From the NCBI GenBank assembly GCA_020723325.1, contig DYJD01000020.1, positions 1 through 64,000 on the forward strand: a DNA stretch of 64,000 nucleotides, in the 5' to 3' direction. Origin of the DNA: Desulfosudis oleivorans (lineage in GTDB: Bacteria > Desulfobacterota > Desulfobacteria > Desulfobacterales > SURF-7). The number at the start of each line of letters is the position of its first letter. Position 1 is the first letter of the stretch. The notes under the pieces are model-generated. The model made no database searches. It saw only the letters and a program-made list of their open reading frames with translations, and was not told the origin of the DNA. Of this stretch, positions 3,744-60,672 are shown one piece after another. A program made the position numbers and the translations under genes.

Positions 3744-3939
3744 CGCTTCTTATAAATTCTATATTATCTAAAAAACCTCAAAATCCCTAAACATACTGCC
3801 TTTAATGAAGAATGCATTTAATTTATTTAAAATATATAAAATTTTTCTCAAAAAAATTTTATTGACAAACTAAAAATTCTATAATATCTACAAATCAACG
3901 AAATAATTTCCCCGCCATGATCAACCAAAGGGGGTGTTT

Positions 3940-4512
3940 ATGGAAGATATCCTCACCGTTGCCAAAGCCAGCAAATACTGCAATGTTTCCCCGCAGACCA
4001 TCATTAATTGGATCGACTTAGGCCATATTGAAGCGTATAAAACCGTGGGCGGCCACCGCCGCATTAAAAAGTCGACTCTGGAAACCTTCATGATCAAGCA
4101 GGGAATCCCCATTCCCGACAAAGAGCCCCAGGACCAACGCAAGCGGATTTTAGTGGTGGATGACGACCCCATCATCGTGGAAACCCTTGTCCAGGCATTG
4201 GAGGAAGATGAATATGATTACGAAGTGATCTCAGCCTCGGATGGTTTTGAGGCCGGACTGCAGATCAATCATTTCAAGCCCCATGTGCTGATCCTCGACA
4301 TCATGATGCCGGATATCAAAGGCTACGAAGTGTGTAAAAAAATCAAATCCAATCCGGAGACCAGAGACACGAAGATCATCGTGCTGTCGGCCTACCTGGA
4401 TGAGGAACGCTTTAAACAAATGAAGGATAATGGTGCGGATGTCTGTTTTTCAAAGCCCCTGCCCCTGCCCCAGTTGAAGGAAGAAGTTGCGCGCCTGTTG
4501 GAATTGAAGTGA
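3940..4512 (+). CDS. Response regulator with N-terminal MerR/excisionase-type helix-turn-helix
   Basis: 190 aa. The ATG at 3940 follows an AAAGGGGGTG ribosome site. Residues 4-50 form a BldC/MerR-like winged helix (LTVAKASKYCNVSPQTIINWIDLG, then GGHRRI). Residues 70-188 form a receiver domain with acidic pocket DDD near 76-78, phospho-acceptor in LILDIMMPD, Ser/Ala in VLSAY and Lys in FSKPLPL. The order (DNA-binding first, receiver last) is the reverse of the usual layout. No partner kinase is adjacent, so it is an orphan regulator likely controlled by phosphorylation. The upstream 100 bases are very AT-rich; see the rejected promoter at 3862-3885. Confidence 0.85.
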   Translation: MEDILTVAKASKYCNVSPQTIINWIDLGHIEAYKTVGGHRRIKKSTLETFMIKQGIPIPDKEPQDQRKRILVVDDDPIIVETLVQALEEDEYDYEVISASDGFEAGLQINHFKPHVLILDIMMPDIKGYEVCKKIKSNPETRDTKIIVLSAYLDEERFKQMKDNGADVCFSKPLPLPQLKEEVARLLELK

Positions 4513-4578
4513 TCTTTGGTTTTTTAATGATTCGGCATCCATGTCCAGCGCGGTTGGAAAACCGCCGGGGAGGTCGGT

Positions 4579-5454
4579 ATGAAACTGAAAGATGCGCTCA
4601 AGAACGGCAAATTCGTGGTCACTTCCGAGGTCCAGTCACCCCTGGGTGAAGGCCCGGACGACCTGATCAACAGCCTGAAACTCATCCGGGGAAGAGTGGA
4701 CGGGGTCTCCATCTCCGAGATTGAACTCGAGGGGGTGGTGGGGGATACCATCAAGACCTGCGACATCCTCCAGCAGAACCGCTTCGAGGCCATTTACCAA
4801 ACCACCACCCGCCCAAAAAACCGTTTGCAACTGCAGAAAGACCTGCTCAATGCCCACCAAGCCGGTGTGGAAAACCTCCTGGTATTCACCGAAGACTACC
4901 GCATCACCGGCGACAGCCTTCAGGAGATGATGTTTTTCCATGTGGATGCCGGCAAACTGGCCTCGGTTCTGGAACATCTCAAGGCCGGCCAAACCGTGGA
5001 AGGCCAAGCTTTGCCCAAGGCCGCGGAATTTGTCCTGGGCTCAGGGGTGGAATCCGCCTGGGGCAAGAATGTGCCCGAACTCGAACTAAAAGAAATGGAG
5101 GAAATGACCCGCCTGGGCACCGGCTATTTCCTGACTACGCCGGTGTTTGACCTGGATCGTTTTGAAAAGTTTCTGAAGCAGACCAAGACTTTTGGAATTC
5201 CGGTGATCGCCGAGGTTATGATCCTCCAGACCGCCGGGGTGGGCCAATTTTTGAACCGTCATCTCAAATCCGGCCTGGTGCCGGACTGGGTCATTAAAAA
5301 GCTGGCCGGCGCCCCGGATAAAAAAAAGGCCAGCATCGAATTATTCACCGATATCGTCAATGGCTTGAAGGATCTTTGCCAGGGCGTGCACATCATCACC
5401 ATCGGCGGCGAAGACAAGCTTAAACTTTATCTGGATGCGGCAAAATTGAAATAG
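4579..5454 (+). CDS. Divergent methylenetetrahydrofolate reductase-like protein (MetF paralogue)
   Basis: 291 aa, with a GGGGAGG ribosome site. It aligns end to end with the MetF at 12816-13718: both start LKDALKNGKFVVTSEV / FKKALVSGKFVVTCEL, share KNRLQLQKDLL / RNRLALQADLL and end GVHIITIGG / GVHIMAIGK. The catalytic-type Glu (TSE) is kept, but the flavin/folate loop LTGDS of MetF is LVFTEDYR here and the Asp-rich NLTDH segment is ISEIEL. It may therefore use another pterin or C1 carrier, or be a non-catalytic partner of the downstream operon, from which a palindromic element separates it. It has a TIM-barrel fold without an obvious N- or C-terminal extension. Confidence 0.75.
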   Translation: MKLKDALKNGKFVVTSEVQSPLGEGPDDLINSLKLIRGRVDGVSISEIELEGVVGDTIKTCDILQQNRFEAIYQTTTRPKNRLQLQKDLLNAHQAGVENLLVFTEDYRITGDSLQEMMFFHVDAGKLASVLEHLKAGQTVEGQALPKAAEFVLGSGVESAWGKNVPELELKEMEEMTRLGTGYFLTTPVFDLDRFEKFLKQTKTFGIPVIAEVMILQTAGVGQFLNRHLKSGLVPDWVIKKLAGAPDKKKASIELFTDIVNGLKDLCQGVHIITIGGEDKLKLYLDAAKLK

Positions 5455-5489
5455 ATCGCTCAGCCGTCATTAGCAATTAATAATTAGCA

Positions 5490-5735
5490 ATTGGACCTTA
5501 GTTATTATTTCGGCCATAAAAAATTAAATTCGAATATCGAAGCCCGAAATTCGAAACAAATTCAAAATTTCAATGTTCAAATAACCAAAACTAAAAGCAG
5601 CAGCTCAATGACAGTATTGTTTGCCGATGTTGTTTTATTTGAATTTTGGTAATTCGAATTTGTTTCGTGTTTCGATATTCGAATTTCGGATTTTTCTGAT
5701 CAGTCGAAAAAGACGATTAAAGCCATAATTATTGA
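5490..5735. repeat. Composite palindromic element (MITE-like), copy 1
   Basis: The 309-base gap between the MetF paralogue and the Fdh-like gene holds a long imperfect palindrome. ATTCGAATATCGAA near 5528-5541 is mirrored by TTCGATATTCGAAT near 5671-5684, and CGAAACAAATTC by GAATTTGTTTCG. Outside these lie degenerate versions of the GGCCTTGATCAT/TTCGGCC termini (about 5497-5517 and 5712-5725). A second copy with the same layout lies at 48597-48795. It encodes nothing, is AT-rich compared with its flanks, and looks like a non-autonomous mobile or REP-type element. Confidence 0.65.
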
Positions 5736-5763
5736 TTTCGTGGATGCAAAAGGAGGCGGTCCT

Positions 5764-8415
5764 GTGGAAGTCATCACCCTGACCATCAACGGCAAAACCA
5801 TCAGTTGCGATCCGGGTGTCAGTGTGCTGGATGCTGCCGCCAAGAACGGTTTCAGCATCCCCACCCTTTGTCACCATCCGGATCTCAAGCCTTTCGGCGC
5901 CTGTCGCGTCTGCCTGGTGGAAGACGAAAAAACCGGTCGGCTTATGGCGGCTTGTGTAACTCCCGTGGCCCAGAACATGGCCGTCAGGACCCATACTCCC
6001 CGGATTCTTACCCATCGCCGCAACATTGCGGCCTTGATGCTGGCGGCCCATCCGGAGTCCTGCATTGTCTGCGACAAGGGCAACCGCTGCCGGCTGCGCC
6101 GGGTGGCGGCGGAGCTCGGGGTGGGAGAAATCCGGCTGGACCCCATGCCCAGCGACCAAACTCCGGACCAGCTCAATCCCTTCATCTACCGGGATCTTTC
6201 CAAATGTATCCTGTGCGGCAAATGCATCCGCGCCGACCACGAACTGGTGGTCACCGGCGCCATCGACTATTCCATGCGGGGCATCAAGGCTTATCCCGCC
6301 ACCCTCCAGGACAAACCCCTGGAGCAGTCCGGCTGCACCTTTTGCGGAACCTGTGTGGCCCTTTGTCCCACCGGCGCCTTGACCACCCGTTCCACATATG
6401 TGGGTGTGCCGGAGCGGGAAGTGGATACCGTCTGCGGATTTTGCGGAGTGGGCTGCCGGCTGCGGCTGGGGGCCGCAGACAGCCAGGTGGTGGAGGCCAA
6501 TCCGGCCATGGACGGCAAATCCGTCAACGGAGCCACACTGTGCATCAGAGGCCATTTCGGCCATGACTTTCTAAACAGTGTCAAACGCCTCACCCGGCCC
6601 ATGCTTCGCCAAAACGGAACCATGACACCGGTGACCTGGGATGAGGCCCTGCAGGAAACCGCCCGGCGCCTGCTGATGTTGAAGGAACAATACGGTCCCC
6701 AGAGTATCGCTTTCCTGGGCTCCTCCAAATGCACCAACGAGGAAAACTATCTGTTTCAAAAAATCGCCCGCAGTCTGCTGAAAACCAATAATATCGATAA
6801 CGGCGGCTATGCCCTGGGACGCGGTTTGCTGAGCTGCATTGAAAAACGCACCGACGGCAGCGGGCGCTTCCACTTTTTTGCCGGGTCCCTGGCCGGCCTG
6901 GAAAAATGCGACGCCATCCTGGTGATCGGCGCAGATCCCACCCATTCCATGCCGGTGGCCGGATACTACCTCAAACGCGGCGCCGTTAAAGGCATCCCCC
7001 TGATTGTCGTGGATCCGCGCAGAACCGAGCTTGCCAAATACAGTGCCCTTTGGCTGCCGGTCCAGCCCGGAGCCGACACGGATCTGGTCAACGCCGTGGC
7101 TGCTTTAATCCTGGCCCGCAAAAGCCACGATGCCTCCTTTGTGGAGCGCTTCACCGCCGGTTTCCGGGAATATGCCGCAAGCCTGCGCGCCCTGGACTTT
7201 GAGCAAATCAAAAAAAGCACCGGCCTGGAAAAAACCGCCCTGGAAAAAGCCGCTACCCTGCTAAGTCATAAGAAAATCGCCTTTGTGCTTGGCGACGGCA
7301 TCCTGAAACAGCGCTCCGGTCTCGAAGCCGTGGAAGCCTTGCTCAATCTGGCCATGCTTACCGGCAGTATCGCCCATAAAGGCGCCGGCTTCTATATTCC
7401 GGCCAAGGAAAACAATCTGGTGGGAGCCTGGGACATGGGCAGCGTGCCCACCACTCTGCCCGGCAGAAGAGCCGTGACCGACCCGGAAGCCCGCGGGGAA
7501 TGGGAAAAGATCTGGCAGACCGCTCTGCCCACTGAGCCCGGCCTGGATTTGGTTCAAATAATCCAGGCGGCTGAAGCCGGACGCCTGAAGGGCATCTTCA
7601 TCATGGGTGAGAACCCCTTGCGCAGCCTGCCCCAACCGGAACGTGTAAAAGCCGCCTTTGCCAAGCTCGAACTCCTGGTCACCCAGGATATCCTGTTTAC
7701 CGAAACCGTTGAAGCCGCCCATATCGTATTGCCCGGCGCCGCCTTTTCAGAAAAGGAGGGGGCCTTTATCAACATGGAGGGCCGCCTCCAGCAACTGGCG
7801 GCCGTGGTGCCGCCGCCCGGCCAGGCCAAAGCGGATCTTGAAATTCTACTTGCCCTTGCGCGGTATTTGGAAGACGGCAATGGACCGGCTTCCCTGGCCC
7901 AAGTGCGGGCTGAAATCGGCCAGGTGCTGCCGCTCTATTCCCCAAGCGCGCGCAGCCGCCATTTGGTCTGGATTCAAAAAAAAGAAGGCCGGGAAGCAGC
8001 CATACCCTTTTCACCTGTTAAAAGCGCGGCCCCGGATCAGGTTGAAACCGGCCGGCCGTATATGGCCGTCTTGGGCTCCCGGCGCCATCAACTGGGCTCT
8101 GGAACCCGCACCGGTCTTTCGGCACGCATTGCCGCCTTCAGCACACAAGGCGGTATCGCCGTGGCTGCGGCGGACGCATTGAAATGGGGGGTCGCGGATG
8201 GGCAAATGATCCGGCTGACCTCAGCCAACGGAATAATGAACGGCCGGGTCCGGATTGATGCCAAAGTCCGGCCCGGCTTCATCTTTGTACCCCATGGGGA
8301 GGATTCCAACCAAGCCCGTTGTTTGCTTGGGCTGACAGCCCTGATGGACTCGGCTTCGCCCGGCTGGAATACCTGTCCGGTCAGCATTGAAAAAATTGAA
8401 GGGGGCTTGCCATGA
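5764..8415 (+). CDS. NuoG/FdhA-like Fe-S molybdopterin-fold subunit lacking the Sec/Cys ligand
   Basis: 883 aa. GTG start at 5764 after AAAGGAGG; an upstream in-frame GTG at 5740 lacks a site. Ligand sets in order: [2Fe-2S] C36/C47/C50/C64; His-Cys3 cluster H96/C100/C103/C109; two ferredoxin-type clusters (C148, C151, C154 and C191, C194, C197, C201); [4Fe-4S] of the molybdopterin domain C224/C227/C231/C260; then the bis-MGD fold and a C-terminal dinucleotide-binding barrel. Two oddities: the fourth Cys of the first ferredoxin motif is Asp158, and where formate dehydrogenases have Sec/Cys-His after NNxD, this protein has Leu351-Gly352. Formate oxidation by the usual mechanism is therefore unlikely. 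It opens an operon with NuoE, NuoF-GltD, MetV and MetF and is probably their electron-wiring subunit. Confidence 0.85.
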   Translation: MEVITLTINGKTISCDPGVSVLDAAAKNGFSIPTLCHHPDLKPFGACRVCLVEDEKTGRLMAACVTPVAQNMAVRTHTPRILTHRRNIAALMLAAHPESCIVCDKGNRCRLRRVAAELGVGEIRLDPMPSDQTPDQLNPFIYRDLSKCILCGKCIRADHELVVTGAIDYSMRGIKAYPATLQDKPLEQSGCTFCGTCVALCPTGALTTRSTYVGVPEREVDTVCGFCGVGCRLRLGAADSQVVEANPAMDGKSVNGATLCIRGHFGHDFLNSVKRLTRPMLRQNGTMTPVTWDEALQETARRLLMLKEQYGPQSIAFLGSSKCTNEENYLFQKIARSLLKTNNIDNGGYALGRGLLSCIEKRTDGSGRFHFFAGSLAGLEKCDAILVIGADPTHSMPVAGYYLKRGAVKGIPLIVVDPRRTELAKYSALWLPVQPGADTDLVNAVAALILARKSHDASFVERFTAGFREYAASLRALDFEQIKKSTGLEKTALEKAATLLSHKKIAFVLGDGILKQRSGLEAVEALLNLAMLTGSIAHKGAGFYIPAKENNLVGAWDMGSVPTTLPGRRAVTDPEARGEWEKIWQTALPTEPGLDLVQIIQAAEAGRLKGIFIMGENPLRSLPQPERVKAAFAKLELLVTQDILFTETVEAAHIVLPGAAFSEKEGAFINMEGRLQQLAAVVPPPGQAKADLEILLALARYLEDGNGPASLAQVRAEIGQVLPLYSPSARSRHLVWIQKKEGREAAIPFSPVKSAAPDQVETGRPYMAVLGSRRHQLGSGTRTGLSARIAAFSTQGGIAVAAADALKWGVADGQMIRLTSANGIMNGRVRIDAKVRPGFIFVPHGEDSNQARCLLGLTALMDSASPGWNTCPVSIEKIEGGLP

Positions 8416-8900
8416 AACCGCCTGAAATCGACTGGCAGAAACTGAATGCACTCATCGAATCCCATAAAACCGAGCAATGGGGCTTGATCCCTTTGTTGCA
8501 GGAGATTCAAAAAGCCTTCGGCTTCATCCCACCTGAATCCGTTGAGCCCATTGCCGAAGCCCTGGGCCTGTTTCCAGCCCAGGTCCAGGGGGTGATCACT
8601 TTTTACGCGGGTTTTTCCATGGTCCCCCGGGGCAAATACGTGCTGCGGGTTTGTTGCGGCACCGCCTGCCATGTCAAAGGCGGCCGCAGCATTCTGCGTT
8701 TGGTGCAGCAGGATCTGAAACTCAAGGAAGGTGAAACCTCGCCGGATTACAAGTTCTCCCTGGAGTCGGCGGCCTGTCTGGGGGCCTGCGCCCTGGCACC
8801 CACCATGATGGTGAACCGGGATTATTTCGGCAAGCTCTCACCGCCCAAGGTGGCGAGTATTTTAAACTACTTTGGCAAGGAAGGCCGGGAAGAGGGCTGA
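8412..8900 (+). CDS. NuoE-like [2Fe-2S] subunit (24-kDa type)
   Basis: 162 aa, start overlapping the previous stop by ATGA, so translation is coupled. The N-terminal helical bundle (LIPLLQEIQKAFGFIPPESVEPIAEALG) and thioredoxin-fold C-half are typical of NuoE/HylC/HydC proteins. Cluster ligands are visible in CCGTACHVKGG and CLGAC. In related complexes it relays electrons between the NuoF flavin and the next Fe-S subunit. It lies between the Fdh-like and NuoF-like genes as in HylABC and NADH-linked formate dehydrogenase operons, and is expected in the cytoplasm. Confidence 0.9.
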   Translation: MKPPEIDWQKLNALIESHKTEQWGLIPLLQEIQKAFGFIPPESVEPIAEALGLFPAQVQGVITFYAGFSMVPRGKYVLRVCCGTACHVKGGRSILRLVQQDLKLKEGETSPDYKFSLESAACLGACALAPTMMVNRDYFGKLSPPKVASILNYFGKEGREEG

Positions 8901-8908
8901 ATGGGAGT

Positions 8909-8944
8909 CGAAAATTTGAGATTTGAAATTTGAGATTTGAGATG
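8909..8944. repeat. Tandem TTTGAGA-rich spacer repeat
   Basis: The spacer between the NuoE and NuoF-like genes is a run of TTTGAGAT / TTTGAAAT units. The same motif in the opposite orientation occurs at 47172-47206 and a related ATTTCAAATTT stretch at 17905-17925, so it is a dispersed short repeat rather than a gene-specific signal. Confidence 0.5.
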
Positions 8945-8981
8945 CTGCTGGATGCAAGATACGGCTAAAAGGAGGATCGGT

Positions 8982-11900
8982 GTGAAACAGATACATGCTC
9001 CCGAAGATCTGGCCGCCTTGGCCCAGGCTGTCAAGGAAAGGAAGGCGACGGATAAACGCGTCGTGAAGGTCTGCTGCACCACCGGCTGCCGGGCCGGCGG
9101 GTCCCTCAAAATCATCCACGCCATGGAACAGGAACTTGCAGCCCAGGGGCTTTCGGATCAAATCGTGATCAAAAAAACCGGCTGCCGTGGTTTTTGTGAA
9201 AAAGGGCCGGTGATGAACATCGAGCCGGACGATATCTTCTACAACCAGGTGGATCCCCGGGACGTTCCGGATATCGTGGGCCTGACCGTGAAACATGGTG
9301 AAAAAGTGGAGCGGCTGCTCTACACGGATCCGGACACCCATGCCAAAATCCAGCGGGAAAAAGACATTCCTTTTTTTAGCAAGCAGGTGCGCCGGGTCCT
9401 GGCCAACTGTGGCCAGATCGACCCCACCGACATCGAGGACTACATCGCCGCCGGCGGGTACCAGGCCCTGGTCAAGGCCCTGACCCGCATGCAGCCCGAT
9501 GAAATCATCGAAGAAGTCATCGCCGCCAAACTGCGCGGCCGAGGCGGGGCCGGTTTCCCCACCGGCTCCAAATGGAAATTCGCGCGCCAGGCCGAAGGAA
9601 CCCCCAAGTACATCATCTGCAATGCCGACGAAGGCGACCCGGGCGCCTTCATGGACCGGGCCGTGCTGGAAGGCGATCCCCATGCCGTACTGGAGGGCAT
9701 GCTCATCGGCGCCTATGCCATCGGCGCGGAATACGGCTATGTGTATGTGCGCGAGGAATACCCCATTGCCATCGAGCATCTCACCATTGCCATTGAACAG
9801 ATGCAAGCCCTGGGACTGTTGGGCGACAATATCCTGGGCAGCGGCTTCCGCTTTCATCTGGCCTTGAAAAAAGGGGCCGGCGCCTTTGTCTGCGGTGAGG
9901 AAACCGCCCTGATGGCCTCCATTGAAGGCAAACGCGGCATGCCCCGGGCCCGGCCGCCCTTCCCGGCCCAGGCCGGCCTCAACGGCAAGCCCTCCAATAT
10001 CAACAATGTGGAAACCTGGGCCAATGTGCCCCTGATCATCAACCACGGGGCCGCCTGGTACAGCGAGGTGGGCACGGAAAAAAGCAAGGGCACCAAGATC
10101 TTCTCCCTGGTGGGCAAGGTCAACAACACCGGCCTGGTGGAAGTGCCCATGGGGGTCAGCATCCGCGAAGTGGTCTTCGACATCGGCGGCGGCATACCCA
10201 AAGGCCGCAAGTTCAAGGCCGTGCAGATGGGCGGGCCTTCCGGGGGCTGCGTGCCCGCCAACTACCTCAACATTCCCATTGACTACGACACCCTCCAGCG
10301 CATCGGCGCCATCATGGGCTCCGGCGGCATGGTGGTGATGGATGAAAACAACTGCATGGTGGAAATCGCCCGCTTTTTCCTGGAATTCACCCAGTCCGAA
10401 TCCTGCGGCAAATGCGCGCCCTGCCGCCTGGGCACCACCCAACTTCTTTCCATCCTGACCCGCATCACCCGGGGCCAGGGCACCCCCAAGGATTTGGAAC
10501 GCATCCGGGAAATCGGCGCCACCATCACGGAAACTTCCCTGTGCGGCCTGGGCCAGACCTGCGCCAAGCCGGCCATCTCCACCCTCCAGTATTTTGCCAG
10601 GGAGTACGAGGATCATATCAAGGAGCACCGCTGCACCGGCGCCGTCTGCGATGCCATGGTCATTTCCGCCTGCCAGCATGCTTGCCCGGCGGGCATCGAC
10701 GTGCCCAATTATGTGGCCGCCGTGGCCCACGGTCAGTATCAACAGGCCGTGGACATCATCCGGGAACGCAACCCCTTCCCGGCGGTGTGCGGCCGGATCT
10801 GCATCCATCCCTGCGAAACCAAATGCCGCCGGGGTGAGCTGGATGATCCGGTGGCCATCCGCTCCCTCAAGCGTTATGCAGCGGATTGGTATTTTGAAAA
10901 TATCGGGCCGGAACGGGAACCCTTCCCCGTCACCCGCAAACAGACCGTGGCTATCGTAGGCGCCGGTCCGGCCGGCCTCACCTGCGCGTATTACCTGGCC
11001 AAGAGCGGCTATAAGGTCACGGTGTTCGAATCCCAGGACCGAGGCGGCGGCATGCTGGGCATTGCCCTGCCGGAATTCCGGCTGCCCCGGGAGATCATCG
11101 AAAAGGAAATCGCCTATATTGAAAACTGCGGGGTGGCGATCCACTACAACGCACCCATCGACGCCAAGCACACGGTGAACGATCTGATGGCCGAAGGCTA
11201 CGGCGCGGTCTTCATCGCCGCCGGGGCCCAGGCCAGCATGCGCATGGGTATTGCCGGCGAAGGCGAAGACATTGAAGGATTGTATTACGGCCTTCAATTC
11301 CTCACCGATGTGCGCACGGGCGGAAATGTACCCTTGTACGGAAAAGTGCTGGTCATCGGCGGCGGTAACGTAGCCCTGGATGCGGCCCGCACGGCCCTAC
11401 GCATGGGCGCCAAGGAAGTCGCAATCTACTACCGCAGAACCATTCAGGAAATGCCGGCCTGGATCAAGGATATTGAGGAGGCCGAGGAAGAAGGCATCCA
11501 CATTCATCCCATGTGGGCGCCCAAAGCTGTTCTGCAAAAAGACGGCCGGGTAATCGGCATGGAATTCGCCCGCTCCAAGACCGCCTATGACGCCGACGGC
11601 AGGTCGCGCCTGAGCGTGGATGAGGACAACCGCATCAGCGTTGAGGCCGGCGCGGTGATCATCGCCATCGGCCAGGCTCCGGATATTTCCTTCCTTTCCA
11701 AGGACAGTCAGATCGAGCGTTCTCTTTGGGGCAGTCTGGAAGTGGATGCCAACCGCTTGTCCACCAATGTGCCGGGCATTTTTGCCGGCGGCGATTTCAC
11801 CACCGGCCCCAGCACGGTCATTGCCGCCATTGCTTCCGGCCGTCGGGCGGCCATTGCTGTGCATAGATACCTGAGCGGCGACACCGGCCGCATCACCATC

Positions 11901-12113
11901 ATTGATGAAAAAACCCGCACACCCGTGGACGCGGGCCTGGCCCTGGAAGAAGAATCCGCCGCGGAAAAACCCCGGGTGCGGGTGTCCCTGGAAAAGCCGG
12001 AAGACCGTGTAAGGGACTTTCGCGAAGTGGAAAAAGGCTTCAGCAGCGCGGATGAGGCCTGCCGGGAAGCCTATCGCTGCCTGCGGTGCGACCTGGAAAA
12101 AGAGAGGAGATAG
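8982..12113 (+). CDS. NuoF-GltD fusion: NAD(P)H-binding FMN/FAD/Fe-S flavoprotein
   Basis: 1043 aa, GTG start after AAAAGGAGG. Residues 25-105 form a thioredoxin-like [2Fe-2S] domain (C31/C32, C36, C68, C72). Residues 130-545 are a full NuoF: FMN/NADH site GRGGAGFPTG (186-195), CNADEGDPG (213-221), SLBB region, and [4Fe-4S] ligands C475/C478/C481 with C521. Residues 550-1035 are a GltD/NfnB-like module: two Fe-S clusters (C564, C568; C603, C607, C611, C615), FAD site [14 protein letters not shown] (659-672), and pyridine-nucleotide site VIGGGNVALDAARTALRMGA (791-810). A last CxxC sits at 1033-1036. NuoF and GltD are normally separate chains; joining them gives two flavins and two nucleotide sites in one polypeptide, as electron bifurcation or NADH/NADPH exchange would need. 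The following MetV and MetF point to methylene-THF reduction as the terminal reaction. Confidence 0.88.
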   Translation: MKQIHAPEDLAALAQAVKERKATDKRVVKVCCTTGCRAGGSLKIIHAMEQELAAQGLSDQIVIKKTGCRGFCEKGPVMNIEPDDIFYNQVDPRDVPDIVGLTVKHGEKVERLLYTDPDTHAKIQREKDIPFFSKQVRRVLANCGQIDPTDIEDYIAAGGYQALVKALTRMQPDEIIEEVIAAKLRGRGGAGFPTGSKWKFARQAEGTPKYIICNADEGDPGAFMDRAVLEGDPHAVLEGMLIGAYAIGAEYGYVYVREEYPIAIEHLTIAIEQMQALGLLGDNILGSGFRFHLALKKGAGAFVCGEETALMASIEGKRGMPRARPPFPAQAGLNGKPSNINNVETWANVPLIINHGAAWYSEVGTEKSKGTKIFSLVGKVNNTGLVEVPMGVSIREVVFDIGGGIPKGRKFKAVQMGGPSGGCVPANYLNIPIDYDTLQRIGAIMGSGGMVVMDENNCMVEIARFFLEFTQSESCGKCAPCRLGTTQLLSILTRITRGQGTPKDLERIREIGATITETSLCGLGQTCAKPAISTLQYFAREYEDHIKEHRCTGAVCDAMVISACQHACPAGIDVPNYVAAVAHGQYQQAVDIIRERNPFPAVCGRICIHPCETKCRRGELDDPVAIRSLKRYAADWYFENIGPEREPFPVTRKQTVAIVGAGPAGLTCAYYLAKSGYKVTVFESQDRGGGMLGIALPEFRLPREIIEKEIAYIENCGVAIHYNAPIDAKHTVNDLMAEGYGAVFIAAGAQASMRMGIAGEGEDIEGLYYGLQFLTDVRTGGNVPLYGKVLVIGGGNVALDAARTALRMGAKEVAIYYRRTIQEMPAWIKDIEEAEEEGIHIHPMWAPKAVLQKDGRVIGMEFARSKTAYDADGRSRLSVDEDNRISVEAGAVIIAIGQAPDISFLSKDSQIERSLWGSLEVDANRLSTNVPGIFAGGDFTTGPSTVIAAIASGRRAAIAVHRYLSGDTGRITIIDEKTRTPVDAGLALEEESAAEKPRVRVSLEKPEDRVRDFREVEKGFSSADEACREAYRCLRCDLEKERR

Positions 12114-12117
12114 CATC

Positions 12118-12774
12118 ATGATTCGATCCATCACCCAGCCCAAGCCGGAAGAAGAATTGAACCGGCTCCTGTCGGACTTCAACCGCATTTTCATCATCGG
12201 TTGCGGCACCTGCGCCACCCTCACCCGCACCGGCGGCCTGGAACAGGTGGCGGCCATGAAGGAGCGCCTGTCCCAGGCCGGGAAAATGGTCACGGGTCAG
12301 ACCGTGGTACCCGTGGCCTGCGACAACCTGACCCTGGAAATGATGAAGGAATACGATGCCGGCATCCAGCAAGCCGCGGCCCTGCTGGTAATGAGTTGCG
12401 CCTTCGGGGTCCAGACCCTGGCCCGCCAGATTCCCAAGAACGTCATCCCGGCCCTGGACACCCTATTCATCGGCAAGGAGACCGGCGCCGGAAAGTTCCA
12501 GGAAATCTGCACCCAGTGCGGCACCTGCGTCATCGGCGAAACCGGCGGAATCTGCCCGGTGACTTCCTGTCACAAAGGCTTGGTGAACGGCCCCTGCGGC
12601 GGCACCGACAAGGGCAAATGCGAAATCGACAAGAACAAGGACTGTGCCTGGACCTTGATCTACAACCGTTTGAAGGCCCTGGACCGGCTGGATGCCATGC
12701 GCAAACTGTTCGGGCCCCGGAATTATCTCGGTGAACCCAAACCCGGCAAGTTCGAGATCAAGGCCGAAGCCTGA
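12118..12774 (+). CDS. metV: MetV: Fe-S/zinc-finger partner of MetF
   Basis: 218 aa; ATG at 12118 after AGAGAGGAG. This is the MTHFR C-terminal family (PF12225). The N-terminal half is a Rossmann-like domain (FIIGCGTCATLTRTGG). The C-terminal half holds a cysteine block (CTQCGTC, GGICPVTSC, LVNGPCGG, GKCEID, CAW) that in acetogen MetV binds Fe-S clusters. MetV pairs with MetF in the reductase that lacks its own NADH site and receives electrons from a partner. Its position between the NuoF-GltD fusion and metF makes it the likely electron bridge between them. Confidence 0.92.
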   Translation: MIRSITQPKPEEELNRLLSDFNRIFIIGCGTCATLTRTGGLEQVAAMKERLSQAGKMVTGQTVVPVACDNLTLEMMKEYDAGIQQAAALLVMSCAFGVQTLARQIPKNVIPALDTLFIGKETGAGKFQEICTQCGTCVIGETGGICPVTSCHKGLVNGPCGGTDKGKCEIDKNKDCAWTLIYNRLKALDRLDAMRKLFGPRNYLGEPKPGKFEIKAEA

Positions 12775-12815
12775 CGATCATCAACCCAACCGTTTCAGAA
12801 AAGGATGGATGAGCC

Positions 12816-13718
12816 ATGGTTTCTGAATTCAAAAAAGCACTCGTTTCCGGCAAATTCGTGGTTACCTGCGAACTGGCTCCGCCCAAGGGCGCCCATGTGG
12901 ACAAGATGAGCCATCACATCGATTTGCTCAAAGATAAAGTGGATGCCATGAACCTGACCGATCACCAGAGTTCGGTCATGCGCTATCCTTCCCTGGGGGG
13001 CGCCATCCTGGTAAAGGAAAAGGGCGGGGAACCCATTCTGCAGATGACCTGCCGGGACCGCAACCGCCTGGCCCTCCAGGCCGACCTGCTCTTTGCCTGG
13101 AGCCGGGGAGTGCGCAACGTGCTCTGCCTCACCGGCGACTCGGTCATGCTCGGAGACCACAAGCAGGCCAAGCCGGTCTTTGACCTGGATTCCAGCCAGC
13201 TCGTGGCCGCCATCCGCACCCTGGAAAAAGGCAAGGATCTGGGCGGCAATGACCTGGACGGCCAGGTCAACTACTGCGCCGGCGCCATCGTCACCCCCGA
13301 AGCCGATCCCCTGGAGCCCCAGCTCATCAAGTTTGAAAAAAAGATCGAGGCCGGCGCCGAATTCATCCAGACCCAGGCGGTCTATGATCTGGACAAGCTC
13401 AAATCCTTCATGGACTATGCCCGCCAGTTCCCGGTGAAGATCCTGGCCGGCGTCATTCTGCTCACCTCCGCGCCCATGGCGCGTTTCATGAACAAAAACA
13501 TCGCCGGTGTGAATGTGCCCCAGAACCTCATCGACGAAATGGCTGCCGCGCCCAAGGGCGGGGCCCTGGCCAAGGGCATCGAGATCGCCGGCCGTATGAT
13601 CCGGCGCATTCACGAGGAAAAGATCTGCGACGGCGTGCACATCATGGCCATCGGCAAGGAGGAAACCGTGCCGGACATCATGGCCGCCGCGGGCGTGAGC
13701 CGGGCTATGCCGTCTTGA
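12816..13718 (+). CDS. metF: Methylenetetrahydrofolate reductase
   Basis: 300 aa, with an AAAGGATGG ribosome site. TIM-barrel flavoprotein that reduces 5,10-methylene-THF to 5-methyl-THF in the methyl branch of the Wood-Ljungdahl pathway. Visible family residues include the catalytic Glu in VTCELAPPKG, the folate/FAD loop LCLTGDS and FIQTQAVYDLD. It closes the operon that begins at 5764. With MetV beside it, it belongs to the MetVF type found in acetogens and sulfate reducers, which takes electrons from a partner rather than directly from NADH. Direction in vivo (CO2 fixation or acetyl-CoA oxidation) cannot be told from sequence. Confidence 0.95.
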   Translation: MVSEFKKALVSGKFVVTCELAPPKGAHVDKMSHHIDLLKDKVDAMNLTDHQSSVMRYPSLGGAILVKEKGGEPILQMTCRDRNRLALQADLLFAWSRGVRNVLCLTGDSVMLGDHKQAKPVFDLDSSQLVAAIRTLEKGKDLGGNDLDGQVNYCAGAIVTPEADPLEPQLIKFEKKIEAGAEFIQTQAVYDLDKLKSFMDYARQFPVKILAGVILLTSAPMARFMNKNIAGVNVPQNLIDEMAAAPKGGALAKGIEIAGRMIRRIHEEKICDGVHIMAIGKEETVPDIMAAAGVSRAMPS

Positions 13719-35667: not shown

Positions 35668-36345
35668 CTAGCGGTACATGTTCTCCGCCACCATCACATT
35701 CCAGACCATATTTGCCAATATCTGGGAGCCTTGCAGGGTGGGATGAATATCATCGGATTTGATATGGGACGGCTGGATATTGGCACGCGGGTCCACCAAA
35801 TAGGCCGACATATTCGTGGAGCCGAAGATGCCCGGGTAGATATCCGAATAGCAATAATCAATGGCTTCGTTCTTTTCGATTTCACTGCCTTTGACATGAT
35901 AATAGCCGAGCCATACACAGTCATCCGGCGATTTCTGATACATGGACTCCAGCATGGCTTCCATTTTATCTGCGATGTAATCAATGGTGCCGAGGCAGCC
36001 GGCGGTCAACGGATCCGAATCGCAATCCATGGAGCCTTGCAGAATATCATTGGCGCCGCCGTCGGCAATCACTGTTTTAAGGGTTGTGCGGCCCAGCGCC
36101 GTGTTTAATTGGCTTTGAATGGCCGCGATCTTGGCACCGCTTACGGATCTGTCCTTGTACATCTTGCCGGATAACGTTTTCAGGGTCTTTTGAATGTCAC
36201 CGGATAAATCAAAAACCGAATCACCGACAATCTGGACATCATACTCACTGGCGGTGGGGTTATTGAAATCCCAACTGCAGCCCGTCATTGACAAAGTCAG
36301 GCCCGCTGTCATGCAGATCGCCAAAAAAATCTTGAATAGTTTCAT
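35668..36345 (-). CDS. SGNH/GDSL hydrolase lipoprotein (copy 1)
   Basis: 225 aa; AGGAGG ribosome site. Lipoprotein signal ending SMTGC at about residues 19-23. SGNH blocks: I with the nucleophile Ser (IVGDSVFDLSG), III (DGGANDI), V (SDDIHPT) with Asp and His. This fits a small esterase or acyl hydrolase on the outer face of a membrane. Its neighbour at 36675-37361 is a near-identical copy; the two share an unbroken block of about 70 residues from VQIVGDS to SDPLT. The 5' leaders are also similar, so the duplication included control sequence. Confidence 0.85.
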   Translation of the reverse strand: MKLFKIFLAICMTAGLTLSMTGCSWDFNNPTASEYDVQIVGDSVFDLSGDIQKTLKTLSGKMYKDRSVSGAKIAAIQSQLNTALGRTTLKTVIADGGANDILQGSMDCDSDPLTAGCLGTIDYIADKMEAMLESMYQKSPDDCVWLGYYHVKGSEIEKNEAIDYCYSDIYPGIFGSTNMSAYLVDPRANIQPSHIKSDDIHPTLQGSQILANMVWNVMVAENMYR

Positions 36346-36674
36346 AAGACCTCCTCCCGTTTAAATGCGTTGATTTATTTTCAGTGCCGCTTGCTTTTGA
36401 TGAACACCAGGATGGAAGACCACATGTGCTCGGCACCTTCAAAAAACGGCCCGGCTGAAATCCCCGTTTTTGAAATGCCGATGGCTGCGCCGCCTTAAAA
36501 ATATGCGTTTTTCTATGTGAACATTGTTTTTTGCATAATACTATCCTACAGAATCAATTCAAAAGGCAACACGAAAAAAGCAGGGGGAAATTAGGGGGAA
36601 CCTGCCCCCAATTTCCCCATACTACAAGGCTCAATGCATTAAAATTATTATGGGCAAGCGGCACTGTCCGGTGT
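36346..36674. other. Intergenic region with duplicated leader and a strong hairpin
   Basis: 329 bases. The first 70 repeat the sequence upstream of the second SGNH copy (both contain AGTGCCGCTTGCT), and ACATTGTTTTTT near 36521 matches the one near 37541. At 36584-36618, GGGGAAATT-A-GGGGG pairs with CCCCCAATTTCCCC (one bulged A, 6-base loop), a REP-like or terminator hairpin placed downstream of the second copy. Confidence 0.6.
36584..36618. terminator. Hairpin between the two SGNH genes
   Basis: A 14-bp stem with a single bulge and loop AACCTG. It lacks a clean U-tract on either strand, so termination is possible but not assured; the GGGGG-rich arms resemble known REP-type palindromes. Confidence 0.4.
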
Positions 36675-37361
36675 TTACCGATACATATTTTCAGCCACCA
36701 TGACGTTCCAAATCATGTTGGCTAGTACTTGCGAGCCGGTCAGTGTTGGGTGAATGTCATCGGATTTGATATAGCCGGCTTCATGACCGGTAAAAGCCGC
36801 CCGGGGATCCACCAGATAGGCCGACATATTGGTGGCGCCGAAAATACCCGGGTAGACATTGGAATATGCATAATCAATGGCTTCGTTCTTTTCCACTTGA
36901 CCGCCTTTTACATGATAGTAGCCCAGCCATACGCAGTCATCCGGTGATTTCTGGTACATGGCTTCCAGCATGACTTCCATTTTGTCGCCGATGTAATCCA
37001 GAGTGCCGAGGCAGCCGCTGGTCAATGGGTCGCTGTCGCAATCCATGGAACCCTGGAGAATATCATTGGCCCCGCCGTCGGCAATAACCGTCTTCAGCGT
37101 AGTGCGACCCAAGGCCGTGTTCAACTGACTTTGAATGGCTGCTATTTTGGCACCGCTCACGGATCTGTCCTTGTACATTTTACCGGACAGGGTTTTCAGG
37201 GTCTTTTGAATATCGCCGGATAAATCAAAGACCGAGTCGCCCACAATCTGCACATCCCACTCGGTAGGGGTAGGATTGTTGAAATCCGCGCTGCATCCGG
37301 TAAGGGATAATGCCAATCCTGCCGCCATACTGATTGCCAATAAAAGCTTCAACAACCGCAT
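36675..37361 (-). CDS. SGNH/GDSL hydrolase lipoprotein (copy 2)
   Basis: 228 aa from the ATG at 37361, which follows AGGAGG; a longer reading has no site. Lipobox LSLTGC. Same SGNH blocks as copy 1 (IVGDSVFDLSG, DGGANDI, SDDIHPT). Differences cluster around residues 145-185, where this copy has VKGGQVEKNEAIDYAY and a 3-residue insertion (FTGHEAGY for IQPSH), so the active site is conserved while a surface region drifts. Likely the source or product of a tandem duplication with copy 1. Confidence 0.85.
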   Translation of the reverse strand: MRLLKLLLAISMAAGLALSLTGCSADFNNPTPTEWDVQIVGDSVFDLSGDIQKTLKTLSGKMYKDRSVSGAKIAAIQSQLNTALGRTTLKTVIADGGANDILQGSMDCDSDPLTSGCLGTLDYIGDKMEVMLEAMYQKSPDDCVWLGYYHVKGGQVEKNEAIDYAYSNVYPGIFGATNMSAYLVDPRAAFTGHEAGYIKSDDIHPTLTGSQVLANMIWNVMVAENMYR

Positions 37362-37658
37362 AAAACCTCCTCTTGTAATAGTGAATGGATTTATTTTCCA
37401 GTGCCGCTTGCTGTTGGAAGAATGTATCCGACGGGAAAACCGCATTGACTTTCAATTCATTTGAAAAGCCGGTTAGGGTTTACATTTGTATACAAGCGAA
37501 TACGTTCGCTAAAAAATAATCGTTTTTTTAACTAAACATTGTTTTTTTAATAATATTATTGTATAAACAAAGTTCAAATATCAATATGGAAAAAATCTGG
37601 GGATAACATGGGGCTTTTACCCATAATATCCCATACAAAAATTGGTTAGGAGGAAATT
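37362..37658. promoter_or_regulatory. Divergent AT-rich control region with adjacent palindromes
   Basis: Lies between the SGNH gene (minus) and the PAS-LuxR gene (plus). TTGTATACAA (37486-37495) is a perfect palindrome and abuts GCGAA-TACG-TTCGC (37496-37509). Together they resemble operator DNA, and the LuxR-type protein encoded next door is a candidate binder. No clear -35/-10 pair stands out. Confidence 0.4.
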
Positions 37659-54092: not shown

Positions 54093-56051
54093 ATGCTCGT
54101 TTTCTGGGTGGGATTGTTGTTGATTCTTTTGGGCGGTGTTCTGGCGTTGCTTCTGAACCGGAATTTCATGTGGTTAAAGCTGACGGCGGTTGTGCTCACG
54201 GCCGCCGGCAGCCTCACGGGTTTGGGGGCAACCCTGTCCTTGTTGAACAAGGCTGCACCCGCGACCATCTCCATCACGTATCTCCATCTGCTAAGCCTTT
54301 CCTTTAAGATCGACGGCCTCGCGGCTTTTTTCCTGATCTGCATTTTCGGCGTGGCCCTGCCGGCGGTGATTTACAGTTTCCACTATATGCATCGGGCCGA
54401 AAACCCTCTGGCCGTGGCCCTGCATTACCTGTTTTTCAGTCTGCTCATCATTTCCATGGCCCTTTTGGTGAGCGCGGCCGACAGTATCACCTTCATGCTG
54501 TTCTGGGAACTCATGTCCCTTTCTTCCTTTTTCCTGGTAATTCACAAACATGAATCGGCGGACAACCGCCGGGCCGGTTATCTTTATTTGGCATTTTCCC
54601 AGGTGGGCGCCATGTTTCTGCTGGCGGCCTTCGGCCTGATTTACGGCCATACCGGCACCTTTGGCCTGGGCAACCTGTCCGGTCTGTCCCAGTCCGTAAG
54701 ACTGCTCATATTTATTTTGGCCGTGATCGGTTTCGGCTCCAAGGCCGGTGTTTTTCCCCTGCATGTCTGGTTGCCCCAGGCCCATCCCGCGGCCCCCAGC
54801 CCTGTTTCGGCGGTCATGTCCGGGGTCATGATCAAAACCGGCATATACGGAATTCTGCGCATGTACGCCCTGCTGAACCTGAATTCACCGGTCCCGGGCG
54901 GGATCATGCTCATCGCCGGCATTATCACCGGTGTTCTGGGGGGCGTTTATGCCCTGGGCCAACAGGATCTCAAACGTCTGCTGGCCTATTCCAGCATGGA
55001 AAACATCGGCATCATTCTGATCGGTCTGGGCCTGGGTATGTTGGGGGTGTCCGCCGGCAAGCCCATCATGGCGGCCTTCGGCTTTGTGGGCGGACTGCTG
55101 CATGTGCTCAACCACGCCGCCTTTAAATCCTTGCTGTTCATGGCTGCCGGCATGGTGCAGCACAGCACCGGCACCCTTTCCATGGATGCCCTGGGCGGGC
55201 TGCTCAAAAAAATGCGCCTCACTGGCATTGCCTTTTTGATGGGTTCCCTGGCCATTGCCGGACTGCCGCCTTTCAACGGTTTCATCAGCGAATTTCTGGT
55301 TTACTTCAGCGGATTTCATGGGACCGGCCTGCCGCGCCATGGGTTTGTACTGTGCCTTTTGGCCATTGTCAGCCTGGCCATCATCAGCGGCTTGGCCCTC
55401 GCGGTTTTCACCAAGGCCCTGGGGGTGGCCTTCCAGGGCGAGCCGCGCAGTGCGGCGGCCCGTTCGGCAACGGAAAAGGGCTGGACCATGCTCCTGCCCA
55501 TGTCGGCGCTGGCCGGACTCTGCCTGTTCATCGGCCTTATGCCCAAGGCTTTCATCCAGCTCGCGGTTCAGGCCGCCGCCGGACTAAACCCGGCTTACGG
55601 CGGTCTGCCCCTTGAGCCCTTCATGGAACTCATCGGTCAGATCAGCCGGTTCTCCATGCTTTTTTTGATGTTGTTGATCCTGCTCCTGGCCCTGCGCAGC
55701 CAGCTCTACCAGGGCAAGACCGTGACCAAGGCCGGAACCTGGGGCTGCGGTTTCACCAGGCCCAACACCAGGATGCAGTATACCGGCTCCTCTTTCAGCG
55801 CTTCCATTCTCGCTTTTTTCCGGCCCCTAACCAAACTGACGGAAGACCATCCCGTAATCAGGGGCCGTTTTCCCGGTGCGACCCATTACCTCAGCAAGGT
55901 CAACGACCTGGCCGAAATGTACTTGCGACCTGTGATCGTCAATCCGGTCCTGGCCTTGTTCGACAAGCTGCGCTGGATCCAGCACGGCGATGTTCACCTG
56001 TATATCGGCTACATCCTGCTCACCATCGTGGTGTTGCTGTTTTTTGTATAA
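54093..56051 (+). CDS. Ehr/Hyf complex antiporter-like subunit (HyfB/HycC type)
   Basis: 652 aa, ribosome site AGAGGAAA. About 15 hydrophobic segments; the proton/Na+-antiporter core (Proton_antipo_M) is visible with MFLMFWELMSLSSF (Glu), KAGVFPLHVWLPQAHPAAPS and KRLLAYSSMENIG. This is one of two antiporter-like subunits (the other at 57640) that carry ions when the complex is energised. First gene of the six-gene Ehr-like operon. Confidence 0.9.
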   Translation: MLVFWVGLLLILLGGVLALLLNRNFMWLKLTAVVLTAAGSLTGLGATLSLLNKAAPATISITYLHLLSLSFKIDGLAAFFLICIFGVALPAVIYSFHYMHRAENPLAVALHYLFFSLLIISMALLVSAADSITFMLFWELMSLSSFFLVIHKHESADNRRAGYLYLAFSQVGAMFLLAAFGLIYGHTGTFGLGNLSGLSQSVRLLIFILAVIGFGSKAGVFPLHVWLPQAHPAAPSPVSAVMSGVMIKTGIYGILRMYALLNLNSPVPGGIMLIAGIITGVLGGVYALGQQDLKRLLAYSSMENIGIILIGLGLGMLGVSAGKPIMAAFGFVGGLLHVLNHAAFKSLLFMAAGMVQHSTGTLSMDALGGLLKKMRLTGIAFLMGSLAIAGLPPFNGFISEFLVYFSGFHGTGLPRHGFVLCLLAIVSLAIISGLALAVFTKALGVAFQGEPRSAAARSATEKGWTMLLPMSALAGLCLFIGLMPKAFIQLAVQAAAGLNPAYGGLPLEPFMELIGQISRFSMLFLMLLILLLALRSQLYQGKTVTKAGTWGCGFTRPNTRMQYTGSSFSASILAFFRPLTKLTEDHPVIRGRFPGATHYLSKVNDLAEMYLRPVIVNPVLALFDKLRWIQHGDVHLYIGYILLTIVVLLFFV

Positions 56052-56072
56052 CCCGAGTGCCAAAGAGGCCGT

Positions 56073-56993
56073 ATGCTTCCATCCATGCTCTTTTTTCTGT
56101 CGGCCATCCTGCTGGCGCCTTTTTTTGCAGCGTTGATTTTAAAGGTCAAGGCCTTTTTCGCCGGTAAAAAAGGGCCGCCCTTGCTGATTCAATACTATAC
56201 CCTGATCAAGTTGTTTCAAAAGGGCTCGGTGTACAGCACCAGCACCACTTTCATCTTCAAACTGGGGCCGGTACTTTCATTTTGCTGCGCCCTTTCGGCC
56301 CTCATGTTTCTGCCCGTGGCCGGCCGACCGGCCCTGTTCGCCTTCCGGGGGGATGTGATCCTGGTATTGTATCTGCTGGCCCTGGGCCGCTTTTTCACCA
56401 TTGCGGCCGCCATGGACACGGCCTCGCCCTTCCAAGGCATGGGCGCGGCCCGGGAAGCCTATTTCCCAATCATTTGCGAAGCCGCCATGTTCCTGATCCT
56501 GATCCTGCTGTATGTGCTCACCTCCAATCTGCAGATCAAGGCTTTTTTCCAGGGCGGGCAGCCCCTGCTGCTCTGGCACAAGGCCGGATCGCCCTTGATG
56601 TTCGTGGTGATTGCCCTGTTCATCATCCTGCTCACGGAAAACGCACGGGTGCCGGTGGATGATCCCGCCACCCATCTTGAGCTCACCATGATCCATGAAG
56701 TCATGGTGCTGGACCACAGCGGGCCGGATTTGGCTTTCATCGAGCTGGGGTCATTTTGCAAACTGTTTTTTTATGCCGGCCTGGTGGCGCGCCTGGTTTG
56801 GCCCTTTGAAACCGGCGTTCCGGCCCTGGACCTGTTGCTGTTCTTCCTTGCCCTCCTCGCCGTATACGTGGCGGTGGGCGTGATGGAGTCGGTCATGGCG
56901 CGCTACCGCATGGATAAGGTGCCCAAATTCGTTTTAACTTCCTTTGCCCTGGCCTTTTTTGCCGTCATTGTCACCCTGGAGCTTGCCAAATGA
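56073..56993 (+). CDS. Ehr/Hyf complex NuoH-like membrane subunit (HyfC/HycD type)
   Basis: 306 aa. Eight hydrophobic segments; NuoH/HycD-type charged loops KGPPLLIQYYTLIKLFQK and TENARVPVDDPATHLELTMIHEVMVLD. It links the hydrophilic catalytic part to the antiporter arm. Separated from the previous gene by 21 bases; overlaps the next by 4. Confidence 0.9.
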   Translation: MLPSMLFFLSAILLAPFFAALILKVKAFFAGKKGPPLLIQYYTLIKLFQKGSVYSTSTTFIFKLGPVLSFCCALSALMFLPVAGRPALFAFRGDVILVLYLLALGRFFTIAAAMDTASPFQGMGAAREAYFPIICEAAMFLILILLYVLTSNLQIKAFFQGGQPLLLWHKAGSPLMFVVIALFIILLTENARVPVDDPATHLELTMIHEVMVLDHSGPDLAFIELGSFCKLFFYAGLVARLVWPFETGVPALDLLLFFLALLAVYVAVGVMESVMARYRMDKVPKFVLTSFALAFFAVIVTLELAK

Positions 56994-57628: not shown

Positions 57629-57639
57629 GGAACGAATTC

Positions 57640-60575: not shown

Positions 60576-60612
60576 AAAGGAGGCGGACTTTTTCGACGAT
60601 ACCTTCCCTCAT

Positions 60613-60643
60613 TGTGGGAGCGGCTTCCAGCCGCGATACGGCC
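60613..60643. repeat. REP core, AGCCGC hairpin (reverse orientation)
   Basis: TGTGGGAGCGGCTTCCAGCC, with GCGATACGGCC following, is the inverse of the core at 51397-51411; GCGGCT-TCC-AGCCGC at 60620-60634 forms a 6-bp hairpin. No GATCAT ends are kept. It sits between the Ehr large- and small-subunit genes. Confidence 0.65.
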
Positions 60644-60672
60644 GCAGCGAATGTTTAGGTAAGTTGTAAGAT

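Follow-up and report, generated by a model that had tools for sequence, protein, structure and literature searches.

What does a formate dehydrogenase (FDH) do once its catalytic site has been lost? The question is raised by an FDH-like gene in a stretch of 64,000 nucleotides (here the window), which comprises positions 1 to 64,000 of contig DYJD01000020.1 in assembly GCA_020723325.1 of Desulfosudis oleivorans. We consider it likely that the product of this gene serves as the electron-wiring subunit of a methylene-tetrahydrofolate (methylene-THF) reductase that has several subunits and is of the MetVF type, and that it descends from a Bfu-type FDH that already stood beside MetV. The metal ligand, the adjacent His and the catalytic Arg are lost, and the gene is linked in an operon with NuoE, NuoF-GltD, MetV and MetF. 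We strongly infer that the dead FDH acts as an electron wire. The proposed reductase would be of an apparently undescribed type, with parts of known kinds in a new assembly.

Loss of the catalytic site

The first-pass annotation, made from the sequence of the window alone, had read Leu-Gly where an FDH should have selenocysteine (Sec) or Cys followed by His. This reading was borne out by an alignment with 44 FDH-type rows and E. coli FdhF, in which L351 and G352 of the window protein, both within NNIDNGGYALGRG (residues 342-354), fall on Sec140 and His141 of FdhF. The pair is missing from all 64 ligand-less rows, the window protein counted, and present in all 44 FDH-type rows. The catalytic Arg (R333 in E. 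coli, Arg587 in FdsA) is replaced by Ala547 in the window protein; Arg occupies this position in 0 of 51 distinct rows of the Desulfobacterota type and in one of the 64 ligand-less rows overall (L080, of the Chloroflexota type). Among 43 distinct FDH rows, Cys or Sec and His are found in 43 and the Arg in 42. Arg replaces the FDH-invariant Lys44 in 50 of 51 distinct rows of the Desulfobacterota type and in 5 of 10 of the Chloroflexota type, and a comparison of columns shows that the FDH-invariant Arg333, Gln335, Arg460 and Arg581 are gone from the branch of the window protein. R460 and R581 presumably help to hold the pterin nucleotides. A total of 176 columns are at least 95% conserved in FDHs; in the 54 Desulfobacterota-type rows, 86 of these are kept in at least 90% of rows and 57 in less than 20%.

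Position 351 has drifted freely in this branch. The 51 distinct Desulfobacterota-type rows have Ser (24), Tyr (6), Phe (5), Gly (4), Asn (4), Ala (3) and one each of Leu, Met, His, Pro and Cys, 11 kinds of residue in total; position 352 is Gly in 48, Thr in 2 and Ala in 1. On account of this variety a conserved replacement ligand was rejected for the window's branch, and the new type of active site that the first-pass annotation had offered as one reading is not supported there. The single Cys351, in L064 (Desulfoluna limicola, 9001-11643), is followed by Gly and accompanied by no Arg, and is probably a product of drift. In the Chloroflexota-type branch, by contrast, position 351 is constantly Tyr, in 10 of 10 rows (L070, L071, L074-L077, L079, L080, L093 and L095) and in 12 of 12 further rows (L192-L203, one of them identical to L080). 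An artefact of sequencing or frame was also rejected: the whole clade has the same loss in intact frames, including L068, which is 77% identical to the window protein, so that the loss goes beyond chance or error. A GTG at 5740 opens the same frame (891 amino acids), and the start at 5764 is equally possible.

The iron-sulfur (Fe-S) ligands have had a different fate. All positions that the first-pass annotation regarded as intact are present in the window protein (C36/47/50/64, H96/C100/103/109, C148/151/154, C191/194/197/201 and C224/227/231/260). These 19 ligands, 18 Cys and H96, are kept in every covering row except for one Val at C47, and the proximal [4Fe-4S] site (C224/227/231/260) is found in 64 of 64 ligand-less rows. 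The fourth Cys of the first ferredoxin motif is indeed Asp, as had been noted, since CILCGKCIRAD ends at D158. This residue was rejected as a part of the site loss, because Asp is found here in 3 of 43 distinct intact FDH rows too, and Cys in some ligand-less rows, 3 of 49 of the Desulfobacterota type and 5 of 10 of the Chloroflexota type. The retention of Fe-S ligands, together with the loss of site columns conserved in FDHs, indicates that selective constraint remains on the clusters and is gone from the catalytic site.

Pfam and NCBIfam recognize an N-terminal Fe-S region of the NuoG/hydrogenase type and a molybdopterin-oxidoreductase domain. The top NCBIfam match by E-value is FDH alpha, at 464.5 bits and thus under the cut-off of 666.25, and the nearest PDB sequences are formate dehydrogenases (9wxb_B, 6tg9_A). 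An AlphaFold model built with 42 sequences (predicted local distance difference test score 86.5, predicted template modelling score 0.90) superposes on 8j83_A with Z 46.2 and a root-mean-square deviation of 2.1 over 851 residues, and on Rhodobacter capsulatus FdsA (6tg9) with Z 42.0 and 2.6 over 865 residues; a model of the intact sister L083 (see below) gives Z 50.4 and 48.5 to the same two structures. In the models the FDH fold is whole, and this is all that they add. Of the checks proposed in the first-pass annotation, the alignment agrees with a lost ligand and the structural model with a whole FDH fold. As described for FdsA (PMC7171172), the window protein has the same whole-length fold and set of Fe-S ligands, but it lacks equivalents of Cys386, His387 and Arg587 and its operon differs.

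In a quick tree with one named NuoG, E. coli NuoG groups with L005 from the window's own genome, far from the ligand-less clade. NuoG of complex I was therefore rejected as an identity, and so, given the lost site residues, was a working formate dehydrogenase. The choice of a wire over an FDH made in the first-pass annotation is supported, as site residues are gone and Fe-S ligands kept, but its likening to NuoG does not hold as an identity, the protein being derived from FDHs. NuoG shares the N-terminal Fe-S domain; it uses a former molybdopterin domain without its cofactor.

Relatives were collected from the window's own order, where 22 of 146 genomes, its own included, matched at E <= 1e-150 (19 with the ligand-less type and 3 with FDHs only), and from GTDB genomes, of which 80 of 587 relatives were used. 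Proteins were read for 116 of 122 loci, the remaining 6 having no tblastn match at the threshold. Column counts omit L004-L009, L013 and L016, so far as these are among the 116, as distant or fragments, and 12 named loci that are fragmentary, distant or nearly identical to others do not enter the first tree. Identity to the window protein served to separate ligand-less from FDH rows (at 38.7%) and the two ligand-less branches from each other (at 42.5%), in agreement with the tree. The counts of 64 ligand-less and 44 FDH rows include near-duplicates, and correspond to 51 Desulfobacterota-type plus 10 Chloroflexota-type and to 43 distinct rows. All trees are quick trees supported by the SH-aLRT (Shimodaira-Hasegawa-like approximate likelihood ratio test) only.

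Operon linkage with MetV and MetF

The decisive context, which the first-pass annotation missed, is the presence of MetV and MetF genes downstream. Seven genes lie on the same strand in the order helix-turn-helix (HTH)-receiver regulator, MetF-like, FDH-like, NuoE, NuoF-GltD, MetV and MetF, and the widest intergenic gap, about 0.3 kb, precedes the FDH-like gene (Table 1). MetV and MetF are adjacent (12052-13718; PF12225 and PF02219). Neither RnfC2 nor HdrCBA-MvhD is among the seven proteins scanned from 3934-13718, and MetV has no PDB sequence match up to E 0.1.

The arrangement recurs among the ligand-less loci. NuoE is downstream in 51 of the 53 with at least 1.2 kb of downstream sequence. 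Where this sequence reaches 4.6 kb or more, MetV follows in 26 of 27 loci, 3.6-4.4 kb past the FDH-like gene, and where it reaches 5.5 kb or more, MetF follows in 24 of 25. None of the 21 loci with 7 kb or more on the upstream side has MetV there. FDH loci have NuoE downstream in 3 of 33 cases and MetV in 1 of 21, a sample to which L083 does not belong because only 3.1 kb follow its match. NuoF is upstream in 24 of 26 FDH loci, compared with 0 of 24 ligand-less loci.

Table 1. Features of the FDH-like gene and its operon in the window
Feature	Position	Strand	Remarks
HTH and receiver-domain regulator, head of cluster	3934..4512	+	Pfam HTH_17, Response_reg
MetF-like protein	4579..5454	+	Pfam MTHFR, 63.6 bits
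FDH-like subunit without Mo/W site, probable electron wire	5764..8415	+	883 amino acids on translation
Asp158 codon, replacing fourth Cys of first ferredoxin motif	6235..6237	+	
Leu351-Gly352 codons, at the place of FdhF Sec/Cys140-His141	6814..6819	+	
NuoE/BfuC-like [2Fe-2S] subunit	8412..8900	+	Pfam 2Fe-2S_thioredx (PF01257); overlaps stop of FDH-like gene
NuoF/BfuB-like FMN/NADH subunit fused to GltD-like domain (FAD, NAD(P)H)	8937..12113	+	
His560...Cys566...Cys571, Bfu B2 [2Fe-2S] ligands	10614..10649	+	Alignment to 7t2r_B; ligands after excerpts of PMC9304861
MetV	12052..12774	+	PF12225, 118.5 bits; first Met of likely start MIRSITQ at 12118
MetF, methylene-THF reductase	12816..13718	+	PF02219, 136.2 bits; PDB matches are methylene-THF reductases

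Among Desulfobacterota-type loci, the regulator is found upstream in 15 of the 22 whose upstream sequence is 2.2 kb or longer, and the MetF-like gene in 34 of the 44 with 1.1 kb or more. The MetF-like protein is better conserved (median identity 75%) than the FDH-like protein (51%). Motifs that it shares with MetF are altered, TCRDRNR to TTRPKNR and LTGD to FTED, and it has no PDB sequence match up to E 0.001. Like the FDH-like protein, it may have decayed as an enzyme and been retained in a regulatory or structural capacity.

The genome (7.2 Mb, 99.5% complete) contains CdhC-family and prismane/CODH-family (carbon monoxide dehydrogenase) genes side by side, and a formate-THF ligase. It also has two intact-site FDH paralogues, L002 (with Sec) and L003 (with Cys), and three MetV loci: that of the window, L218 and L219. 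Formate oxidation thus need not rely on the window protein, and other methylene-THF reductases exist in the cell. In L218 (8658-14938), MetV-MetF adjoins a 1400-residue fusion of Fer4, Fer4_20 and three Pyr_redox_2 domains, which we read as HdrA-like; in L219, MetV is accompanied by a small Fer4 protein read as HdrC-like. Elsewhere in the window, a run of NuoL/NuoH/NuoM-like, NuoC-D and NuoB-like open reading frames (ORFs), recognized by eye from their translations, extends over 54093-61722 and perhaps encodes a group-4-hydrogenase-like or complex-I-like membrane complex. At 35668-37445, on the minus strand, are two closely spaced and very similar ORFs of lipoprotein-like character, 225 and 256 amino acids long.

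Intact sisters and short Fe-S proteins

All 60 ligand-less rows included in a 106-row tree fall into one clade (SH-aLRT 100). Its sister is L083, a Dehalococcoidia FDH with the Cys-His pair (SH-aLRT 99), and at this locus MetV-MetF is directly downstream of the intact FDH; no NuoE or NuoF was found in the L083 locus. The class to which this genome belongs, Dehalococcoidia, was surveyed in 197 genomes, and 30 stretches were then picked by hand. The L083 protein is matched in 91 of the 197 at E <= 1e-200. MetV is found in 70 of the same 197 genomes at E <= 1e-15; excerpts of a 2017 paper held metV to be restricted among Chloroflexi (PMC5736913).

Three more intact-site relatives came from this survey. 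L182 has FdhA, NuoE, a complete BfuB (with a canonical ferredoxin domain, judged by eye) and MetV on one strand, and MetF on the other. L184 has FdhA, cut at a contig edge, NuoE and BfuB, and its contig ends ahead of any MetV. L183 (FdhA, NuoE and the start of NuoF) and L208 (the end of NuoF, GltD and MetV) come from separate contigs of the same genome; their NuoF pieces overlap in a stretch that differs at a single residue, so that contiguity is probable but not certain. L083, L182, L183 and L184 all keep the Cys, His, Arg and Lys, and they form the sister group of the ligand-less clade, with SH-aLRT 95 for this group and 100 for the joint branch. At 2 of the 4 loci, L083 and L182, the intact FDH adjoins MetV on one contig. 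These intact-site FDHs linked to MetV, with or without NuoE and BfuB (L083:8995-13265 and L182:5003-10752), are candidates for a formate-linked methylene-THF reductase.

Two further sets of loci were picked by hand (L192-L203, chosen for the proximity of FdhA and MetV, and L205-L210) and are no unbiased sample. The 12 ligand-less loci L192-L203 have the full order FdhA-like, NuoE, NuoF, GltD, MetV and MetF. L205, L206, L207, L209 and L210 encode a protein of 223-260 amino acids that corresponds to the Fe-S N-terminus, with no FDH domain; its neighbours are an ORF resembling NuoE (recognized partly by eye), a short NuoF (397-409 amino acids) and MetV, and in 4 of the 5 loci MetF is on the same strand. 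The short proteins might be truncated relatives or an independent, HoxU-like recruitment. Taken together, the intact sisters, ligand-less loci and short loci suggest that linkage to MetV preceded the loss of the formate site, and that the wire can do without the FDH site but not without the Fe-S part. The ancestor would have been an NAD-linked Bfu-type formate dehydrogenase standing beside MetV, whose formate site decayed afterwards.

Possible bifurcation, rival readings and significance

The NuoF-GltD protein of the window contains Complex1_51K (PF01512), SLBB (PF10531), NADH_4Fe-4S (PF10589), Fer4_20 and Pyr_redox_2 domains, and no Fer4 family besides Fer4_20 is in its Pfam list. We take PF01257, PF01512, PF10531 and PF10589 to be the Pfam counterparts of the InterPro domains that define BfuC and BfuB. 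The core domains of Bfu enzymes (a NuoE-like BfuC, and the FMN, SLBB and NADH_4Fe-4S domains of BfuB) are thus present in the operon, and the top PDB matches of NuoF are 7t2r_B and other bifurcating HydB chains. According to excerpts of PMC9304861, the hallmark of the Bfu family is the B2 [2Fe-2S] cluster with ligands C438, H525, C531 and C536, plus C476 or Thr; 8 of 1558 BfuB sequences lack the B2 His, and non-bifurcating homologues do not have it. In a gapless alignment with 7t2r_B the B2 ligands correspond to C473, H560, C566 and C571 of the window protein, with T511 at the place of C476. The four are invariant in 47-48 covering loci, a few intact-FDH sisters included, as are the GltD Fe-S cysteines C579, C583, C618, C622, C626 and C630 in 45 loci.

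Among characterised machines, the nearest is the Stn transhydrogenase StnABC (PDB 8oh5/8oh9), which likewise has a NuoE-like subunit, a HydB-type NuoF-like subunit, a GltD domain and an FDH-like domain; the last is called catalytically inactive in excerpts of PMC10482914 and PMC7483475, with no formate activity. In Stn, GltD is carried on the NuoG/FDH-like protein and StnB keeps its ferredoxin domain, whereas GltD is on NuoF in the window; Stn is a transhydrogenase, whereas the window operon includes MetV-MetF. Fdh-Bfu type 1, as far as described in the same excerpts of PMC9304861, has in common the BfuB/BfuC core with B2 ligands and a BfuA with an FDH domain, but in the window the FDH site is lost and GltD replaces the BfuB ferredoxin domain. 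The window complex is not filed as a strict Bfu member. The main text of that paper does not contain the terms methylene, MetF, MetV, MTHFR, tetrahydrofolate or GltD. Of the methylene-THF reductase types I-IV in excerpts of PMC8760232, none has NuoE, NuoF-GltD or FDH-like subunits. Types II-IV have adjacent MetV and MetF, as in the window; where the window operon has NuoE/NuoF-GltD/FDH-like as its NADH module, these types have none, RnfC2 or HdrCBA-MvhD. No paper describing this complex was among those listed in our searches of open-licence PMC, which is weak evidence of novelty.

In the mechanism that we propose, the Fe-S clusters of the FDH-like subunit and MetV would carry electrons between NADH/FMN of the NuoF-like subunit and the MetF active site. 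The complex might moreover bifurcate or confurcate, as the NuoF-like subunit keeps the Bfu B2-cluster ligands, with GltD as a third redox port in place of the Bfu ferredoxin domain; judged from the genes, such bifurcation is plausible, the extra port being NAD(P)H at GltD. As a more far-reaching version we tentatively put forward a fifth type of MetVF reductase, bifurcating through a Bfu-like NuoE/NuoF-GltD core, that arose when an Fdh-Bfu enzyme captured MetV-MetF and was formate-linked first, as in the Dehalococcoidia sisters with intact FDH, and formate-blind later, as in the window, where the dead FDH would be no more than a wire.

Several observations weigh against these proposals. The complex is known here from its genes, and the two other MetV loci of the genome could serve as its methylene-THF reductase. 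Since the ligand-less rows are one clade, the MetV linkage is one association, and a Fisher's p of 2.5e-11 for it overstates the case. FDH and MetV genes can also cluster for other reasons, as 4 of the 22 FDH loci whose upstream sequence reaches 7 kb or more (L085, L098, L100 and L109) have MetV 5.4-7.8 kb upstream. The lone FDH locus with MetV downstream, L113, has it past a second FdhA match (about 200 residues), NuoE and NuoF. Two ligand-less loci, L034 and L095, both encoding short proteins, have no NuoE downstream. NuoF and GltD matches adjoin in many intact-FDH loci, so the fusion is not special to MetVF operons. The NuoF of the window lacks the C-terminal 4Fe-4S ferredoxin domain of BfuB (IPR017896) and has GltD with Fer4_20 there.

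This missing ferredoxin domain would fit a plain NAD(P)H-dependent reductase without bifurcation, in which the B2 ligands are leftovers and the FDH-like subunit is still a wire. The short-type NuoF (397-409 amino acids) beside MetV, which stops before the B2 Cys pair, points the same way, as does the RnfC2-MetVF of Acetobacterium woodii, NADH-dependent and non-bifurcating in excerpts of PMC8760232. We nevertheless regard this reading as rather unlikely given the invariance of C473/H560/C566/C571 and the link between the B2 His and bifurcating members in the excerpts of PMC9304861. That NuoE, NuoF and a NuoG-like protein occur together might instead indicate the NADH module of a complex-I-like membrane complex, with MetV-MetF as mere neighbours; the cytoplasmic NuoEFG of Desulfatiglans anilini has been regarded as a complex I present in part (excerpts of PMC6129605), and the NuoL/H/M-like ORFs of the window lie at 54.1-61.7 kb. 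This is improbable, however, as the membrane cluster is about 40 kb off, the subunit falls among FDHs in the tree, apart from E. coli NuoG, and MetV is downstream in all but one of the 27 loci.

A new catalytic site, with Mo or W bound by bis-molybdopterin guanine dinucleotide either with no ligand from the protein or with Ser or Tyr in that role, can draw on the whole FDH fold, on the arsenite oxidases among the structural matches of the model (Z about 33), and on the frequency of Ser351 in the window's branch and of Tyr in the other. Arsenite oxidase has no protein ligand to its metal. The 11 kinds of residue at 351, the lost Arg333, Gln335, Arg460 and Arg581, and the 57 of 176 FDH-conserved columns kept in less than 20% of the rows of the window's branch make such a site very improbable. 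There is next to no prospect that the protein is an active formate dehydrogenase after all: FDHs are its top NCBIfam and PDB matches, but the former is below its cut-off, the Sec/Cys, His and Arg are lost, and the genome has its two intact-site paralogues.

Oxidation of methyl-THF to methylene-THF with NAD+ is uphill (potentials of about -200 versus -320 mV), and to our knowledge the coupling of this step in acetyl-CoA-oxidising anaerobes is an open question of the Wood-Ljungdahl pathway. In a genome with carbon monoxide dehydrogenase/acetyl-CoA synthase, the complex would help to drive methyl-THF oxidation during acetyl-CoA oxidation or, in reverse, methylene-THF reduction. The conserved operon of MetV-MetF and a bifurcating-type NADH module offers a concrete, purifiable candidate for that coupling. 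The fifth-type reading, if true, would account for the coupling of methyl-THF oxidation to NAD(P)+ and for orphan 'NuoEFG' genes of sulfate reducers. Annotators should be aware that such NuoEFG sets can be mistaken for complex I remnants, and the FDH-like proteins for formate dehydrogenases, FDH alpha being the top NCBIfam match even under the cut-off. The series from an intact FDH beside MetV to a dead FDH and to a protein with no FDH domain illustrates how an enzyme may become a wire.

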